Assembly: GCF_001463885.1 (NCBI RefSeq)
Contig: NZ_BBWQ01000020.1
Coordinates: 186,001-250,000 of the forward strand
From: Aureimonas altamirensis
GTDB lineage: Bacteria; Pseudomonadota; Alphaproteobacteria; Rhizobiales; Rhizobiaceae
Direction: 5' to 3'
Length of the DNA stretch: 64,000 nucleotides
Shown here one piece after another: positions 21,735-31,435 of this stretch (position 1 is its first letter; every line of letters begins with the position of its first letter). The position numbers and the translations under genes are program-made. The notes beneath the pieces are model-generated. The model was not told the DNA's origin. It made no database searches and was given only the letters and a program-made list of their open reading frames with translations.

Positions 21735-23372
21735 ATGATGAAATCTCTTCTTTCCGGTACGGCGTTTCTGGTGCTGTCTGCATCGCTTGCGCAGGCTCAG
21801 GACACCGAAAGCGTGCTGCGGATCGGTATGACGGCGGCTGACATACCGCGCACGCTGGGCCAGCCGGATCAGGGTTTCGAAGGCAACCGCTTCACCGGCC
21901 TCACCATGTACGACGCCCTCACCATGTGGGACCTGTCCAAGGCCGAGGAGCCCTCTGCGCTCATTCCCGGCCTTGCCACCGAATGGGCCGTCAATGACGG
22001 CGACACCACCAAATGGACGTTCACGCTGCGGCAGGGCGTGACGTTCCATGACGGCTCGCCCTTCAATGCCGACGCCGTGGTGTGGAACGTCGACAAGGTG
22101 CTCAACGAAGACGCACCGCAATTCGACGCCAGCCAGGTGGGCGTGACGGCATCGCGCATGCCGACCTTGCGCTCGGCCCGCGCCATCGACGAATACACGG
22201 TCGAGCTGACCACGTCGGAGCCGGATTCCTTCCTGCCCATCAACCTGTCGAACCTGTTCATGGCCAGCCCTGCGCATTGGCAATCGCTCTACGATGCCCT
22301 TCCGGAGGGCGACAACCGCGCCGCGCAGGCATGGGAGCGGTTCGCCGCCGGCGCCTCCGGCACCGGGCCTTGGAAGATGGACAATTTCGTGCCGCGCGAG
22401 CGGCTGGAACTCGTCCGCAACGAAGACTACTGGAACGAAGCGCGCGTGCCGAAGACGCAGCGCATGATCCTGTTGCCCATGCCGGAGGCCAACGCGCGCA
22501 CGGCGGCTCTTCTGGCCGACCAGGTGGACTGGATCGAGGCGCCCGCCCCCGACGCAATCCCCGAAATCCAGGGTCGTGGCTTCACCATCGAGGCAAACGA
22601 GCAGCCGCATGTCTGGCCGTGGCAGTTTTCCAGGCTCGAAGGCTCGCCGTGGAACAACATAGACGTCCGCAAGGCGGCCAACCTGTGCATCGACCGCGAG
22701 GGCATGCGCGATGGGCTGCTGGGCGGGCTGATGGCCCCGGCCACCGGCACCGTCGAGGAAGGGCATCCCTGGCGCGGCAACCCGGAATTCCAGATCCGGT
22801 TCGATCCGGAGGAAGGCCGCCGGCTGATGGAGGCGGCCGGCTACTCGGCCGAAAACCCCCTTGCCGTGAAGACGCAGACGTCGGCCTCGGGCTCCGGGCA
22901 GATGCAGCCTTTGCCGATGAACGAATATATCCAGCAGGCATTGGGCGAATGCCACTTCGCCGTCGAACTCGACGTGATCGAATGGAATACGCTCTTCACC
23001 AACTGGCGCCGCGGAGCCAACGATCCGTCCGCCAACGGCGCCAACGCCATCAACGTCACCTACGCGGCCATGGACCCCTTCTTCGCCATGGTCCGCTTCC
23101 TGCAGTCGGAGATGGCGCCGCCGACATCCAACAATTGGGGCTTCATCGACAATCCCGACTTCGACGCGCTGGTGGACAAGGCACGCACGACCTTCGACGC
23201 CGAGGGGCGTGACGCAGCCCTTGCCGAACTGCATGCGGCCTCGGTCGATGATGCGGCTTTCCTGTGGGTGGCGCACGATGTCGGCCCCCGCGCCATGAGC
23301 CCGCGCGTACAGAACTTCGTTCAGCCGCGCTCGTGGTTCGTCGATTTCTCGCCCGTGACGATAGGCGAGTAA
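21735..23372 (+). CDS. Peptide/nickel-type ABC transporter substrate-binding protein
   Basis: Periplasmic solute-binding protein of the DppA/OppA family (SBP_bac_5), 545 residues. I place the start at the tandem ATG (21735), which gives a good signal peptide (KSLLSGTAFLVLSASLAQAQ, cleaved about residue 22). Family features include YDALTMWD, GVTFHDGSPFNADAVVWN and WNNIDVRKAANLCIDREGM. It is the first gene of the importer/amidase operon. The ligand is not deducible; family members bind peptides, opines, nickel or heme. Confidence 0.9.
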   Translation: MMKSLLSGTAFLVLSASLAQAQDTESVLRIGMTAADIPRTLGQPDQGFEGNRFTGLTMYDALTMWDLSKAEEPSALIPGLATEWAVNDGDTTKWTFTLRQGVTFHDGSPFNADAVVWNVDKVLNEDAPQFDASQVGVTASRMPTLRSARAIDEYTVELTTSEPDSFLPINLSNLFMASPAHWQSLYDALPEGDNRAAQAWERFAAGASGTGPWKMDNFVPRERLELVRNEDYWNEARVPKTQRMILLPMPEANARTAALLADQVDWIEAPAPDAIPEIQGRGFTIEANEQPHVWPWQFSRLEGSPWNNIDVRKAANLCIDREGMRDGLLGGLMAPATGTVEEGHPWRGNPEFQIRFDPEEGRRLMEAAGYSAENPLAVKTQTSASGSGQMQPLPMNEYIQQALGECHFAVELDVIEWNTLFTNWRRGANDPSANGANAINVTYAAMDPFFAMVRFLQSEMAPPTSNNWGFIDNPDFDALVDKARTTFDAEGRDAALAELHAASVDDAAFLWVAHDVGPRAMSPRVQNFVQPRSWFVDFSPVTIGE

Positions 23373-25270: not shown

Positions 25271-26314
25271 ATGATCGCCTCCGCCCTAACCCCGGCCGGT
25301 GATGTCGGCGGCCGGTCGCAGCCGCTCCTGACCGTGCGCCGGCTGACCAAGCACTTCCGCGTCGGCGGCGGCCCATTCGAGAAGAAGCGCGTGGTGCGCG
25401 CCGTGGATGGCGTTTCCTTCGACGTGGCCAAGGGCGAGACAGTGGGCGTGGTCGGGGAATCCGGCTGTGGCAAGTCCACCACCGCCCGGCTGCTGATGCA
25501 CCTGATGCCGCCCGACCAGGGCGAACTGATCTATGACGGTCAAAGCATCGGACACGATCTGTCGCTGCGCGATCTGCGCCGGCGTATGCAGATGGTGTTT
25601 CAGGATTCCTACGCCTCGCTCAACCCGCGCCTGACGATCGAGGATTCCATTGCCTTCGGGCCGAAGGTGCACGGCGTTGCGGATATGCAGGCCCGGAACC
25701 TGGCACGCGACCTTCTGGGCAGGGTGGGCCTGAACCCGCAGACCTTCGCGGCGCGCTACCCGCATGAATTGTCCGGCGGCCAGCGTCAGCGCGTCAACAT
25801 CGCCCGGGCGCTGGCCCTGTCGCCGCGGCTCGTCATCCTGGACGAGGCGGTGTCGGCACTCGACAAATCGGTCGAGGCGCAGGTGCTGAACCTGCTGAAC
25901 GACCTGAAGGCCGAGTTCGACCTCACCTATCTGTTCATCAGCCACGATCTGAACGTCGTGCGCTATATCTCGGACAGGATTCTGGTGATGTATCTGGGCG
26001 AGGTCGTCGAGATCGGCCCGTCCGAAAGCCTCTGGAACGAACCGCGTCACCCGTATACGCGCGCCCTGTTTGCGGCCATGCCGACGCTGGATCCGGACAG
26101 GCGCACGACGCAGGCGCCGATTTCGGGCGATCCGCCCAATCCGATAGATCCGCCATCGGGCTGCCGCTTTCACACGCGCTGTCCCTTCGCCGAACCGGTA
26201 TGCTCGGCAACCGCCCCGGCGCTCGTCGACGTCGCGCCATTGCATCAGGCGGCGTGCCACATGGCCATATCCGGTTCGGGGCATTCGAAATCGGGAGAGG
26301 TAGCTTCAGCATGA
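25271..26314 (+). CDS. ABC importer ATPase, OppF/DppF type
   Basis: ATP-binding subunit of 347 residues with Walker [10 protein letters not shown] (about 62-70), signature [15 protein letters not shown], Walker [13 protein letters not shown] and H-loop FISHDL. The C-terminal oligopeptide/dipeptide extension with [14 protein letters not shown] and two further Cys may hold an iron-sulfur cluster, as suggested for this subfamily. Its stop overlaps the start of the AtzG-like gene (ATGA at 26311-26314). Confidence 0.93.
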
Positions 26315-26514
26315 CATCACCCCTGACCAGGGAAACGGTTGCCGGTTCGGCGGCGCTGGCCGGCCATCCTGTTTCACCGCAAGACGCAGACCGTATCGCA
26401 ACGGCAATCGGCCCGGCCCTTCTGGCGTTCTCCGCCGTCGAGGCGACCCTGCCCTTCGAGGCGGAGCCGGCCCGGTTCATGGCCGTGCAGATGCAAGGTG
26501 GGCAGGACGCATGA
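26311..26514 (+). CDS. AtzG-like small subunit (DUF4089)
   Basis: A 67-residue protein starting [10 protein letters not shown]. The helical core with AGHPVSPQDADRIATAIGP and LPFEAEPARF matches my knowledge of the AtzG-like family, the small partner that AtzE amidases need in 1-carboxybiuret hydrolysis. It overlaps the ATPase gene by four bases upstream and the amidase gene by four bases downstream (26511-26514), so all three are translationally coupled. No other cyanuric-acid pathway gene (atzD, atzF) is present. The family call is from pattern recognition, not a search. Confidence 0.75.
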   Translation: MTSPLTRETVAGSAALAGHPVSPQDADRIATAIGPALLAFSAVEATLPFEAEPARFMAVQMQGGQDA

Positions 26515-27941
26515 GCCATTCGAACGACCCTGCCCTGATGACACTGGCCGAGCTTGTCGCCGCCATCGCCGGCCGCCTTCTATCCTCGCGGGAGGCGACG
26601 CAGGCCTGCCTCGGCCGTATCGCCGAGTGGCAGCCGGTTCTGAACGCCTTTATCGCCATCGAGCCCGAGGAGGCCCTTCAAGCCGCCGACGCTGCCGATG
26701 CCCGCATTGCCGAAGGCAGGTCCATCGGCCCGTTCGACGGCGTGCCCTTTGCGCATAAGGACATGTTCTACGCACGCGGCAAGATCTCCACCTGCGGCTC
26801 CAGGATCCGGCGGGACTGGATCGCCGATACGGATTCCACCGCGTTGAAACGCCTGACCGATCAGGGGTCCGTTCGCCTCGGTACGTTGCACATGGCCGAA
26901 TTCGCCTATGGGCCGACCGGCCATAACGCCCATTTCGGCGCCGCCGGAAATCCGTGGAACCCGCTGCATGTGACGGGCGGATCGTCGTCCGGCTCGGGCG
27001 CCGCCGTCGCCGCGCGGTTGACGCCGGCCGCGCTGGGCTCCGATACGGGCGGCTCCATCCGCATGCCGGCCAATTTCTGCGGCGTCACCGGGTTGAAGAC
27101 AAGCGTCGGACGGGTCAGCCGTTTCGGGGCGATGCCCTTGTCGCACTCGCTCGATACGATCGGTCCGCTGGCGCAGACCGCAGAGGATTGCGCCCTGGTC
27201 CTGCAGGCGATCGCCGGGCCCGACAGCAGCGACCCGACGGCGCTGCCCGTGCCGGTGCCCGATTACGCCGCTGCCTGTCGGTTGGGCGTGCGCGGCATGC
27301 GCCTTGGCGTGCCGGACGCCTTCTATCTCGATGGGCTGGAACCGGCGACGGCGCGGGCTTTCGAAGCAGCGCTGGACGCCTTCCGCGGCGAAGGCGTGGA
27401 GATCGTTTCCATTTCCCTTCCCGATCAGATGCGCCTTTCGGCGGCCGGGCAGATTCTGCTGGCCTGCGAAGCAGCCGCCTTCCACCGGCGCTGGCTGGCC
27501 GAACGGCCGGAAGACTACGGCGCGCAGGTTCGCGCGCGGCTGGAAAACGGGCTGGCCATCCCGGCCGTCACCTATCTGGAAGCCCTGCGCTGGCGGGCGA
27601 TCGCGCTGACGGAGCATCTGCAAGCGGTGGCCGGTGTGGATGCCTTCCTGGCGCCCGTCAGCGCCAGCGCCTCTCCCAGCATCGCGGAAAGCGATGTCGG
27701 CGGGGGGCCCAGCGCGGAGGCCGTGATCCAGAGGATCACCCGGTTGATGCGCCCGGTCAATTATCTGGGCCTGCCCGCCCTCGTGGTGCCGGCGGGCTTT
27801 AGCGATACGGGCCTTCCCATCGGCTTGCAGATCGTGGGTCGCCCCTTCGAGGAAGACCGTATCCTGCGGCTGGGCGCCGGCTTCCAGCGGGCAACAGACT
27901 TTCACCGCGCCGTGCCGCAACTGCCGGGAGACCCGCAATGA
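26511..27941 (+). CDS. AtzE-like amidase (amidase signature family)
   Basis: A 476-residue amidase signature enzyme hydrolysing a carbon-nitrogen amide or carbamoyl bond. The Ser-cisSer-Lys triad is visible: Lys83 in FAHKDMF, Ser158 in TGGSSSGSG and Ser182 in GSDTGGSIR. Presence of the small AtzG-like gene directly upstream and the general sequence place it with AtzE-type hydrolases rather than GatA, which needs GatB/GatC. It sits between two ATPase genes of the same importer, so its substrate is probably what the importer brings in. No signal peptide: it is cytoplasmic. Confidence 0.85.
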   Translation: MSHSNDPALMTLAELVAAIAGRLLSSREATQACLGRIAEWQPVLNAFIAIEPEEALQAADAADARIAEGRSIGPFDGVPFAHKDMFYARGKISTCGSRIRRDWIADTDSTALKRLTDQGSVRLGTLHMAEFAYGPTGHNAHFGAAGNPWNPLHVTGGSSSGSGAAVAARLTPAALGSDTGGSIRMPANFCGVTGLKTSVGRVSRFGAMPLSHSLDTIGPLAQTAEDCALVLQAIAGPDSSDPTALPVPVPDYAAACRLGVRGMRLGVPDAFYLDGLEPATARAFEAALDAFRGEGVEIVSISLPDQMRLSAAGQILLACEAAAFHRRWLAERPEDYGAQVRARLENGLAIPAVTYLEALRWRAIALTEHLQAVAGVDAFLAPVSASASPSIAESDVGGGPSAEAVIQRITRLMRPVNYLGLPALVVPAGFSDTGLPIGLQIVGRPFEEDRILRLGAGFQRATDFHRAVPQLPGDPQ

Positions 27942-28915
27942 CGAATGCCGTGGACGTCCGCAACCTCAGCGTCCGGTTTTCCGGCGAGCGCACCGTCCAT
28001 GCCGTCAACGATGTCTCGCTGACCGTGAAGCAGGGGGAAGTGCTCGGCCTTCTCGGGGAGTCCGGCTCGGGCAAGAGCGTCACGCTGCGGGCGCTGATGC
28101 GTCTTCTGCCGAAGCGGCGCACCACCATCGGCGGTCGCATCGAGGTGTCCGGGCAGGACGTGATCCAGATGGGGGACAAGGCCCTGTCGGCCTTTCGCGG
28201 CAAGACCGTTTCGATGATCTTCCAGGAGCCGATGCTGGCGCTGGACCCCGTCTACACGATCGGCGACCAGATAGCGGAATCGGTGGTGCGGCATGAGGGT
28301 GTTTCGCGCAGGGACGGCCGCGCGCGCGCCCTGGAAATGCTGGAACGCGTCAGGATTCCGTCCGCCGCCAGCCGGCTCGACGCCTATCCGCACGAGATGT
28401 CGGGCGGCATGCGCCAACGTGCGATGATCGCGCTGGCACTGGCCTGCCGGCCCAAGATTCTCCTGGCCGACGAGCCGACGACGGCGCTCGACGCGACGGT
28501 GCAGATCCAGATTCTGTTGCTGCTGCGCGAGTTGCAGGCCGAGTTCGGCATGTCGATGATTTTCGTGACGCACGATATCGGCGTCGCGGTAGAGATCTGC
28601 GACAGGATCGCAGTCATGTACGCCGGCCAGATCGTGGAAAGCGGCGCGTTGCGCGATGTCGTCCGCGATGCCCGCCACCCCTATGCGCAGGGGCTATTGG
28701 CGTCCACCGTGCACGGCAATCCCGGCGGGTCGCGCCTGGAGACGATCCCCGGTGCGCCGCCCTCCTTGTCGGAGCCGCCCACCGCCTGCCAGTTTGCGCC
28801 GCGCTGCCGCCATGTCCGGCAAACCTGCCAGCAGATGCCACCCCCGGCCGTGGAGCTGGGGGCGCGGCGCATGGTGCGTTGTGTCCTTGCCGAGCCGCAG
28901 GGCGTGCCGGCGTGA
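27938..28915 (+). CDS. ABC importer ATPase, OppD/DppD type
   Basis: Second ATP-binding subunit, 325 residues: Walker A GESGSGKSV (about 38-46), signature MSGGMRQRAMIALAL, Walker B ILLADEPTTALD, H-loop FVTHDI and the OppD C-terminal region with CQFAPRCRHVRQTC. The start overlaps the amidase stop (ATGA 27938-27941) and the stop overlaps the racemase GTG (28912-28915). Splitting of the two ATPase genes by the AtzG/AtzE pair is unusual and fixes the enzyme as part of the uptake operon. Confidence 0.93.
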   Translation: MTNAVDVRNLSVRFSGERTVHAVNDVSLTVKQGEVLGLLGESGSGKSVTLRALMRLLPKRRTTIGGRIEVSGQDVIQMGDKALSAFRGKTVSMIFQEPMLALDPVYTIGDQIAESVVRHEGVSRRDGRARALEMLERVRIPSAASRLDAYPHEMSGGMRQRAMIALALACRPKILLADEPTTALDATVQIQILLLLRELQAEFGMSMIFVTHDIGVAVEICDRIAVMYAGQIVESGALRDVVRDARHPYAQGLLASTVHGNPGGSRLETIPGAPPSLSEPPTACQFAPRCRHVRQTCQQMPPPAVELGARRMVRCVLAEPQGVPA

Positions 28916-29670
28916 TCCTGTCCATCGTCAATCCCAACGCCACCCATGCCATGACGGAAAGCGTTGTACAGACCGCGCGCATGGTCGCCGCACCCGGCAC
29001 CCGCATCGACGCTCGCACCAACACCTCCGGCCCCCTCTCCATCGAAGGGTCGGTCGACGGCGCGATGGCCGTACCGGGCATGCTGGAACTGATGCGCGCC
29101 GCCGAGGCCGAGGGCGCGGACGCGCATGTGATCGCCTGTTTCGACGATACCGGGCTGGATGCCGCCCGCTCGCTGCTGTCGGCGCCGGTCATCGGCATCG
29201 GCGAGGCCGGCGCCAGGGCGGCCGGCTTCATCGCACGCCGCTTCACGATCGTCACGACACTGTCCGTGTCGGTACCCATCCTTGAAGACAACCTCATACG
29301 CTACGGCCTTGCCGGCCACGCCACGGTACGCGCCAGTGAGATTCCCGTGCTGGAGCTGGAGGCGAACCCCGATCGCACGATGGCGCGCCTGTCGGCGGAG
29401 ATCGCCGCCGCCATCGCCCATGACCGGGCAGAGGCCATAGTGCTTGGCTGCGCCGGCATGACGTCGCTGGCCACCCAGCTATCCAAGCGGCACGACGTAC
29501 CGGTGGTGGACGGCGTCGCGGCCGCCATAACCTTCGCAGAGGCGCTGGTGGCGCTGGGGCTGCGCACCACCGCGCACGGGCTTTACGCCCCACCGCGTGG
29601 CAAGGCCGAAAAGGATGGGGACGCGGCGCTGGCAAACCAAAATTCCGTGTCCGAAAACACAGTTCTGTGA
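28912..29670 (+). CDS. Asp/Glu/hydantoin racemase family protein
   Basis: A cytoplasmic cofactor-independent racemase or related enzyme (maleate isomerase/hydantoin racemase superfamily), 252 residues. It starts at a GTG whose last two bases begin the stop of the ATPase gene. The two cysteines that swap protons are visible: Cys76 in IACFDDTG and Cys180 in VLGCAGM. The N-terminus ILSIVNPNAT fits the hydantoin racemase branch. With the amidase it suggests breakdown of a chiral carbamoyl or hydantoin-like compound, which is inference. Confidence 0.85.
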   Translation: MILSIVNPNATHAMTESVVQTARMVAAPGTRIDARTNTSGPLSIEGSVDGAMAVPGMLELMRAAEAEGADAHVIACFDDTGLDAARSLLSAPVIGIGEAGARAAGFIARRFTIVTTLSVSVPILEDNLIRYGLAGHATVRASEIPVLELEANPDRTMARLSAEIAAAIAHDRAEAIVLGCAGMTSLATQLSKRHDVPVVDGVAAAITFAEALVALGLRTTAHGLYAPPRGKAEKDGDAALANQNSVSENTVL

Positions 29671-29746: not shown

Positions 29747-31435
29747 ATGAACCAAGTTGCGACGTCTTTCAGAACCTACGTCCTGCTGGCCGTCTTCTCG
29801 GCGGCATTTCTTGCGATCTTCGGTCGACTTGTCCACCTGACCACGCTGGAGCCCGCCGAGCCGGTTCTTGCACGCGCGGCCCCGTCGCATTCAAGGCCAG
29901 ACATCCTGGATCGGAACGGCGAAATCCTGGCACGCGACATCGTGATGTTCTCCGTCTATGCCGAGCCCCGCCGCGTGATCGATCCGGACGAAACGGTCGA
30001 ACAGCTCCTGACCATCCTGCCCGAGCTGAATGCGGCATCGCTGTATCGACGGCTCAGCGGCAAGTCCGGCTTCACCTGGGTCAGCCGCTCGATCACCCCG
30101 GCCAAGCAGCAGGCGATCCACAATCTCGGTCTGCCCGGCATCGGCTTTCGGCCCGAGGTGCGCCGCCTCTATCCCAATGGCGGGGCCGCGGCGCAGGTGC
30201 TGGGTGCCGTCAATATCGACAATCTCGGGATCGCCGGCATCGAAAGCTGGATCGACGAGAGTGGCCTCAACGTCCTGCGGTCCGCCGGCATGGATTACCG
30301 CCGCGAGGACCTCGACCCCGTCAACCTGTCCATCGACCTCTATGTCCAGCACGCCTTCGCCGACGAACTACGCAAGGCGATCGACCATTACGACGCCATC
30401 GGCGGTGCGGGCCTGGTGCTCGACGTCAACAGCGGCGAAGTCGTTTCCCTGGTGTCCCTGCCGGATTTCGATCCGAACAATCCAACGGAGGCGCACAAGA
30501 AGGAGAACATCAACCGCATCAATGTCGGCGTCTATGAAATGGGCTCCACCTTCAAGGCCCTCACCATGGCGATGGGCCTCGACAGCACGGCCTTCAACAT
30601 TCATTCCGTCGTGGATGCGACCAATCCCCTGCGCTTCGGCCGGTTTTCAATCAGCGATTATCGCGGGGAAAAGCGCCCGCTGAACATGCCGGAGGCCTTT
30701 CTCGTTTCGTCCAACATCGTGTTCGCCAAGATGGCGATGCAGGTTGGCGTCGACAGGCACAAGGAGTTCCTGCGCGCGCTTGGCCAGCTCACCCGCCTGA
30801 CCACCGAGCTGCCCGAAAGCGCCGCTCCGATCGTTCCGCGCAACTGGGGCGCGGTCAACACCGCCACCATCGCATTCGGGCACGGTTTGGCCGTGACGCC
30901 GCTGCAGGCCTCCATGGGTGTTGCGGCGCTGGTCAATGGCGGCCGGCTGATCCGCCCGACCTTCGTCAAGGATACGCCGGTAGAAGACCGCATCATCGCC
31001 GAAGACGTCATATCGCCGTCCACAGGCGAGGCACTGCGCTACCTCATGCGGCTCAACGGCATCGACGGCTCCGCCCGCCGCGCCACGATTGCCGGCTACC
31101 ATGTCGGCGGCAAGACCGGCACCGCCGAAAAAGTAATCGACGGACGCTACGCCAAGGGCAAGGTGATGACCTCCTTCATGGGGCTCGTTCCGGCGCACGA
31201 GCCGAAATACCTGATCCTCGTCATGCTCGACGAGCCGAAGCCCGTCGAAGGCACGCACGGCTTCCGGACGGCGGGCTGGAACGCGGTGCCGACCGCCAAG
31301 GCCATTTTGAACCGCATTCTGCCGATGATGCGCATGCCCCCGCAGTTCACCCAGCCGCAGGACCCGTTCCCCAACATCGTGCGCGCCCGGGCACATGGCC
31401 ATCAGCACTTTCTGGCCGGCGCGCTGACGCAATAG
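29747..31435 (+). CDS. Class B penicillin-binding protein, FtsI-like
   Basis: Peptidoglycan transpeptidase anchored by one N-terminal helix (about residues 9-28), 562 residues. It has the PBP dimerisation domain and a transpeptidase domain with Ser267-Thr-Phe-Lys270, the Ser321-Ser-Asn323 motif and Lys456-Thr-Gly458. It reads as PBP3/FtsI type, but it is outside any division and cell wall (dcw) cluster and has a short N-terminus, so it is probably a second FtsI-like paralogue. It stands alone downstream of the importer operon. Whether it acts in division or polar growth is unknown. Confidence 0.9.
   Translation: MNQVATSFRTYVLLAVFSAAFLAIFGRLVHLTTLEPAEPVLARAAPSHSRPDILDRNGEILARDIVMFSVYAEPRRVIDPDETVEQLLTILPELNAASLYRRLSGKSGFTWVSRSITPAKQQAIHNLGLPGIGFRPEVRRLYPNGGAAAQVLGAVNIDNLGIAGIESWIDESGLNVLRSAGMDYRREDLDPVNLSIDLYVQHAFADELRKAIDHYDAIGGAGLVLDVNSGEVVSLVSLPDFDPNNPTEAHKKENINRINVGVYEMGSTFKALTMAMGLDSTAFNIHSVVDATNPLRFGRFSISDYRGEKRPLNMPEAFLVSSNIVFAKMAMQVGVDRHKEFLRALGQLTRLTTELPESAAPIVPRNWGAVNTATIAFGHGLAVTPLQASMGVAALVNGGRLIRPTFVKDTPVEDRIIAEDVISPSTGEALRYLMRLNGIDGSARRATIAGYHVGGKTGTAEKVIDGRYAKGKVMTSFMGLVPAHEPKYLILVMLDEPKPVEGTHGFRTAGWNAVPTAKAILNRILPMMRMPPQFTQPQDPFPNIVRARAHGHQHFLAGALTQ

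Follow-up and report, generated by a model that had tools for sequence, protein, structure and literature searches.

Why does a dipeptide-type importer operon carry a small gene and an amidase gene between its two ATPase genes, and which compound does it serve? We address this for a 64,000-nt stretch of the Aureimonas altamirensis genome (contig NZ_BBWQ01000020.1), here called the window; all coordinates are positions within it. The initial annotation took the small protein and the amidase for an AtzG/AtzE-like pair and proposed a chiral carbamoyl, ureido or hydantoin-like substrate. We suggest, with a probability of about 0.52, that the operon serves the uptake and initial breakdown of a chiral nitrogen compound of ureide or hydantoin-like type. 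The small protein and the amidase look like a third GatC-type helper/amidase couple and not an AtzG/AtzE pair, and the main interest lies less in the AtzG label than in this helper family, which the databases searched do not recognise.

Genes of the operon

The operon comprises the following genes, all on the plus strand.

21735..23372, +, periplasmic solute-binding protein, family 5 (Dpp/Opp/Nik type), 545 amino acids (aa); PF00496, 231.8 bits
23433..24377, +, inner-membrane permease, DppB type; PF00528, PF19300
24381..25268, +, inner-membrane permease, DppC type; PF00528, PF12911
25271..26314, +, importer ATPase 1, DppF type; PF00005 and PF08352 (oligo_HPY)
26311..26514, +, small protein, 67 aa, probable diverged GatC/AtzG-type partner; no Pfam or NCBIfam match over cut-off
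26511..27941, +, amidase of the amidase-signature family, 476 aa; PF01425, 356.2 bits
27938..28915, +, importer ATPase 2, DppD type; PF00005 and PF08352
28912..29670, +, allantoin/hydantoin-type racemase, 252 aa, GTG start, C76/C180; PF01177, 184.6 bits

The initial annotation counted seven genes between 21735 and 29670, where there are eight. Its description of the junctions holds: the small gene and the amidase gene lie between the ATPase genes, and four 4-base overlaps have the coordinates and frames given (ATGA at 26311-26314, 26511-26514 and 27938-27941, GTGA at 28912-28915). Neighbouring genes of the operon are at most 60 bases apart. By profile scan the Dpp/Opp-type importer set is complete, with a family 5 binding protein, two binding-protein-dependent permeases and two oligo_HPY ATPases. 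The binding protein does not reach the DppA equivalog model (64 bits, NCBIfam cut-off 1005), and the top NCBIfam models for the DppB-type permease (Opp2B, NikB, Opp1B and GsiC) all score under cut-off. The binding protein is 71-82% identical to those of relatives in operons of the same order and 50% identical to that of locus L179.

The small protein and its pairing with the amidase

Amidase relatives were found in 10 of 297 genomes at the family level (E <= 1e-110), and in 40 of 397 genomes of the order and 45 of 385 of the class (E <= 1e-105), the window genome being counted each time. We studied the better-scoring matches (10 of 10, 30 of 42 and 30 of 57, respectively), and added 14 named contigs minus L036 (39%, partial) and two of 52 plasmid records. 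The resulting 82 loci include one duplicate record (L025, equal to L015).

A homolog of the small protein is encoded immediately upstream of the amidase in 75 of the 82 loci. Among the seven loci without one, L126, L132 and L136 have an unmatched frame of 63-73 aa that overlaps the amidase start. The small gene and the amidase gene overlap in 70 of 74 loci, and by exactly 4 bases in 61, counted with the start nearest the overlap, a choice that favours overlap. In 16 Bradyrhizobium-like copies the proportion of nonsynonymous differences (pN) is below that of synonymous ones (pS) in 120 of 120 pairs, with a median rate ratio (dN/dS) of 0.27; the two other frames of the same copies give pN < pS in 24 and 1 of the 120 pairs. 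Comparing the window gene with three nearer relatives gives pN 0.34-0.36 and pS 0.61-0.65. The codon pattern thus indicates that the small frame is under purifying selection in the 16 Bradyrhizobium-like copies. A spurious reading frame is ruled out by the codon pattern and the pairing with the amidase.

The initial annotation had named failure of the DUF4089 (PF13318) profile on the small protein as one of two outcomes that would refute its reading, and this outcome is observed. The window protein misses this profile at E up to 1 and has no NCBIfam match; its sole Pfam match is SpoVIF (E 0.2, chance level). DUF4089 is therefore ruled out by profile as its family. Scanning 73 distinct members against Pfam at E 0.1 gave nine families with one member each (best E 0.0049), and against NCBIfam three families with one or two members (best 0.05); none of these matches is meaningful, and neither PF13318 nor GatC is among them. 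As a positive control, a PF13318 search of 299 genomes of the phylum gave matches in 24; no match was found in 121 genomes of the family and 14 controls. The small family has a motif on its C-terminal side, roughly L-x-F-x-x-E-P-x-x-F. In the plasmid records examined, the amidases of this clade are labelled only 'amidase' and the helper 'hypothetical protein'. We found no description of the small family in one open-access literature library, Pfam or NCBIfam, which does not prove that there is none.

For profile comparison with hhalign, the AtzG set held 21 of the 24 PF13318 loci (those of at least 50 aa) and the AtzG of pADP-1, and the GatC set nine sequences of 30 loci, 21 being dropped by a length and frame filter. 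The small family scores 26.7 against AtzG (best of 100 column shuffles 13.35) and 21.3 against GatC (best of 100 shuffles 13.48), with reversed-profile controls at 9.9. The window's clade alone gives 26.6 against AtzG and 21.1 against GatC (probabilities 61% and 15%), and the remaining members alone 23.6 and 21.8. These scores are higher than that of AtzG and GatC against each other. A structure model of the small protein, built from 71 rows, has a mean predicted local distance difference test value of 82.5 and a predicted template modelling score of 0.58. A Foldseek search with this model returned GatC chains as the top 4 of 10 matches, each weak singly, which seem to agree with the profile comparison. 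We conclude that the small protein is very probably a diverged relative of AtzG and GatC at the level of remote superfamily homology.

The amidase

The two AtzE models are the top-scoring NCBIfam models for the amidase, and both stay below cut-off (TIGR02715, 331.5 against 425.75; NF006631, 346.8 against 461). Distant allophanate-hydrolase matches are likewise under cut-off. The best solved relative is 4wj3, a GatA; the second is 6c62, with the PDB name biuret hydrolase, which we take to be AtzE.

We built a tree of 140 amidases by a quick method: 74 with the new small protein upstream, 7 from the same collection without a match to it, 25 beside DUF4089, 30 beside GatC, and 4 paralogs or others, with no sampling of partner-less amidase families. 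Three groups are seen. In brief, the GatA group has 31 rows (support 99) and includes the window genome's own GatA, the AtzE/HpxY group has the 25 rows beside DUF4089 (support 98), and a clade of 81 rows (support 99), apart from both, holds the window amidase. The long-branched rows L003, L004 and L050 fall between the three groups.

Lys83, Ser158 and Ser182, presumably the catalytic triad of the amidase-signature family, are invariant in 129 aligned rows of the three clades. H82, H138, S160 and R414 are typical of the new clade; the AtzE/HpxY clade has E for H138, G for S160 and Q for R414. The conserved arginine would suit an acidic substrate.

Of the original label AtzG/AtzE-like pair, the close pairing and the remote homology to AtzG and GatC stand; membership of the AtzG family, of AtzE by model cut-off and of the AtzE/HpxY clade does not. 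We consider a complex of the helper with the amidase probable.

Amidases of the same clade were also seen in other settings. In L174 and L175 they lie approximately 3 kb from urease-like structural genes (by eye), in L174 with a tripartite-transporter receptor between. Separately from these, L050 (6833-9798) has consecutive genes for a cytosine-deaminase-like amidohydrolase, an amidase and an HpxZ/AtzH protein (213.5 bits against 135), beside a Liv-type-like importer.

The racemase

The racemase was originally described as a hydantoin-racemase-like enzyme with cysteines 76 and 180; read from its GTG start it has exactly these two cysteines. The solved structures closest to it are 3qvj, whose deposited name is putative hydantoin racemase, and 5lfd from P. 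fluorescens; both are allantoin racemases, 3qvj being KpAllR (PMC12661438). KpAllR has the catalytic cysteines Cys79 and Cys184 and a signature of Asn12, Met17, Thr118 and Thr119, three of which hydrogen-bond the substrate (PMC12661438). C76 and C180 align with the KpAllR cysteines, and N9, M14, T115 and T116 equal its four signature residues, with a numbering offset of 2 for KpAllR deduced from the cysteines. The same six residues are found in five of six racemase relatives compared, the exception being that of L181. The racemase is the only such match in the window genome.

Gene order and neighbours in related genomes

A search for the same gene order elsewhere, as first suggested for this locus, found ATPase-small-amidase-ATPase in 21 of 81 loci; many other loci of the clade are not nested. 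The nested order occurs in the window and in G220 of the same genus, in two Aurantimonas genomes, in Bradyrhizobium and Bradyrhizobium-like genomes, in Azorhizobium and Elioraea, and in G734 and G949 from two further families. For loci with wide flanks, BLAST with chosen queries, family scans of selected open reading frames and inspection by eye served to identify neighbouring genes. The whole series of binding protein, two permeases, ATPase, small protein, amidase and ATPase is present in 12 of the 13 wide-flank nested loci, the window included; Elioraea is the exception.

Some of these relatives keep company that supports the putative chiral ureido or hydantoin-like substrate of the initial annotation. 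In L172 the operon is accompanied by a D-hydantoinase (TIGR02033, 536.5 against a cut-off of 393.25; NF009941, 766.8 against 647), a racemase with 59% identity and a gene of the ureidoglycolate-lyase family. In L179 HyuA and HyuB (hydantoinase A/B) are encoded beside the operon. L028 has a gene of the allantoate amidohydrolase subfamily (649.7 against 452) and one of the ureidoglycolate-lyase family that is over the Pfam cut-off and below the NCBIfam ones.

In L181 (5090-11378) couple and importer adjoin and are not nested. This locus encodes a diaminopropionate ammonia-lyase (NF006058, 466.6 against 276; TIGR03528 below cut-off), an AllC-like protein (474.8 against 452), a CN_hydrolase, a ureidoglycolate-lyase-family protein and a distant racemase relative. 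The gene set would seem to resemble the end of the reductive urate pathway, where albizziin and diaminopropionate occur (PMC12507026).

PF04115 is a low-copy family: a search of 12 genomes gave 11 matches. G734 and G1209 have one copy each, and it lies beside the couple. In the window genome the only PF04115 gene is located on contig C18, among purine-like genes, and the operon is thus rejected as the canonical allantoin operon.

Five Bradyrhizobium-like loci (L026, L168, L170, L171 and L187) have a second binding-protein gene beside the operon, on the opposite strand; its product shares 46-48% identity with the window's binding protein.

Related genes on contig C11 and in other genomes

In G220 genes for a GntR regulator, an NTF2-like protein (other strand) and a cytosine-deaminase-like amidohydrolase are found immediately upstream of the homologous operon, and the racemase and a CnbZ-like gene downstream. 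In the window genome the trio of GntR, SnoaL/NTF2-like and CodA-like genes is located on contig C11 (L049, 3327-10353), with a gene of the gamma-glutamyltransferase family and an SsuA-type binding protein. The C11 copies are 88% (GntR) and 74% (CodA-like) identical to those of G220, and the NTF2-like protein is 75% identical to an Aurantimonas copy. In G159 the trio, with GntR partly inside the stretch, occurs together with the racemase beside a different, Pot-type importer (by eye); identities are 63% for the racemase, 48% for the CodA-like protein, 75% for the NTF2-like protein and 72% for the partial GntR. Since trio and racemase occur with different importers, they look like one module that different importers can serve. 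We infer that one pathway is split over two loci in the window genome.

A comparison of the NTF2-like protein with AtzH/HpxZ detected no signal of homology in shallow alignments of five sequences against two. A paralogous GntR, 63% identical to that of G220, is found on C11 near a D-hydantoinase and an amino-acid-type-like importer (L218, 6795-11906). The CnbZ-like gene (2-amino-5-chloromuconate deaminase model) closes the cluster in Aurantimonas (L015, 11291-12046; 376 bits against 220) and in G220 (L014, 11985-12731), whose copy is 65% identical to that of L015; the window genome gave no match to it.

Function of the operon and alternatives

We propose the following route. The Dpp-type ATP-binding cassette (ABC) importer, made up of binding protein, two permeases and two ATPases, would bring the compound in. 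The racemase would interconvert its enantiomers by proton exchange between two cysteines, so that both mirror forms could be used. The amidase, with its Ser-cisSer-Lys triad, would then cleave an amide or ureido bond, bound and stabilised by the 67-aa GatC/AtzG-type partner. The ATGA overlaps would couple translation of the small protein to that of the amidase and put both between the two ATPase genes. Further steps may be encoded elsewhere, by the GntR, SnoaL/NTF2-like and cytosine-deaminase-like amidohydrolase genes on C11. A ureide or hydantoin is the substrate class we rather favour; for any single compound, the likelihood is low.

Several observations weigh against this proposal. Only five of the 13 wide-flank nested operons have an identified ureide or hydantoin gene nearby, and this count includes the window with its racemase. 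None was identified in the five Bradyrhizobium-like, two Aurantimonas and Elioraea loci, where genes could have been missed. The racemase adjoins the nested operon only in the window, L014 and L172, and the distant relative in L181 is without the second cysteine in the alignment. An apparently whole purine cluster (by eye) is present on C18 of the window genome, and ordinary allantoin breakdown should therefore not need this operon. Other amidases of the clade are found near TRAP/tripartite transporters and 5-oxoprolinase-type genes. As to the helper, the hhalign probabilities of the small family are moderate (74% against AtzG, 26% against GatC). The AtzG-GatC positive control scored 14.18, inside its own null (best shuffle 14.25), and the method is therefore insensitive here. 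The GatC matches in Foldseek have E-values of 0.7-2.3, three of the chains being one protein and the fourth an integrative model, and residues 51-67 of the model are poorly predicted.

The alternative that survives best, though we think it unlikely, is an ordinary peptide or amide importer whose amidase strips amide nitrogen from peptide-like or amidated compounds, with the racemase as a late, unrelated addition. It agrees with the Dpp/Opp transporter type, with the eight of 13 wide-flank nested operons beside which no ureide gene was identified, with the racemase being beside three of 13, and with the five Bradyrhizobium-like loci, where the second binding protein is the only related-looking neighbour. 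Against it speak the neighbouring genes of relatives that belong to separate families (D-hydantoinase, HyuA/HyuB, AllC-like and ureidoglycolate-lyase family), and a racemase that has the signature of allantoin/hydantoin racemases and whose gene in the window overlaps an ATPase gene by 4 bases.

It is improbable that the racemase belongs to the purine pathway and acts on allantoin that a separate urate cluster produces, with the importer and the amidase dealing with imported ureides derived from allantoin. The C18 cluster lies on another contig, the racemase gene overlaps an importer gene instead, and in L172 a racemase is accompanied by a D-hydantoinase rather than an allantoinase; these points are set against the allantoin racemases as closest solved relatives, the single racemase match in the genome, and the AllC-like and ureidoglycolate-lyase-family genes of related operons.

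That a plain AtzG/AtzE or HpxX/HpxY pair, as in the breakdown of cyanuric acid or oxalurate, has only been relocated to a transporter operon is very improbable and largely refuted by the tree: the AtzE scores, 6c62 and the published clusters of AtzG, AtzE and AtzH, which lie near ABC transporters and seldom include atzD or atzF (PMC6219798), speak for it, and the sub-threshold AtzE models, the absence of PF13318 from the window protein and its 73 relatives, the clade and the differences at H138, S160 and R414 against it. As the initial annotation had noted for atzD and atzF, Pfam and NCBIfam scans found no AtzD- or AtzF-type match among the eight genes, nor an AtzH/HpxZ-type one, and the cyanuric acid pathway is rejected.

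Comparison with known systems

Several known systems resemble parts of the operon. Like GatC/GatA of the tRNA amidotransferase, the window proteins form a putative helper/amidase couple, with a weak model match to GatC and the same three catalytic residues; unlike it, the amidase belongs to a separate clade, GatB is absent from the eight genes, and the genome's own GatC/GatA are encoded elsewhere (L002/L145). The enteric ggt-atzG-atzE-atzH genes, which we take to be HpxW-HpxX-HpxY-HpxZ of oxalurate and allantoin breakdown, share the ureide theme, and C11 has gamma-glutamyltransferase-family, NTF2-like and CodA-like genes together. In the window genome, however, the genes are spread over two loci, the NTF2-like protein is without HpxZ/AtzH homology detectable in those shallow alignments, and the amidase is outside the clade.

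AtzG/AtzE (1-carboxybiuret hydrolase) of Pseudomonas sp. ADP and other DUF4089 pairs also place the gene of a small, non-catalytic protein just ahead of that of an amidase-signature enzyme, in clusters often near ABC transporters, and the small proteins are remotely homologous by profile. The window pair differs in having no PF13318, another amidase clade, the L-x-F-x-x-E-P-x-x-F motif and no AtzD, AtzH or AtzF among the eight genes. AtzE is insoluble without AtzG (PMC6219798); the window amidase may depend on the small protein. The racemase shares two catalytic cysteines and four signature residues with KpAllR (3qvj) and the P. fluorescens enzyme (5lfd); it differs from these in its setting, an importer operon that also codes for a helper/amidase couple. 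GatA may be the ancestor of the N-carbamoylputrescine amidohydrolase AguY (PMC12283126). Likened by description only, its GatA-like amidase fold acting on a carbamoyl (ureido) group would be a precedent for the proposed chemistry; the part of that description available to us mentions no helper (PMC12283126).

Tentatively, and a little short of an even chance, we suggest that GatC/GatA and AtzG/AtzE are joined by a third lineage of such helper/amidase complexes, which is common in Alphaproteobacteria and which the family databases searched do not recognise. In the window operon the helper would be obligate and its gene coupled by 4-base overlaps into the middle of an ABC importer operon, so that the complex and the transporter motor are made together for chiral ureides. 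Expressing these amidases as single genes would fail or mislead if they need the helper. A third helper couple, if true, would suggest that GatC-like dependence is a wider and older trait of this part of the amidase family and not a vestige of one enzyme. The gene contexts narrow the candidates to a short list of ureides and hydantoins.

Flanks of the operon

A promoter scan gave 1 candidate against a chance mean of 1.2, which is chance level. A scan of the plus strand found no terminator-like sites between the racemase and the next gene. This gene (29747-31435, same strand) starts 76 bases past the racemase and encodes, judged by eye, a penicillin-binding-protein-like product.

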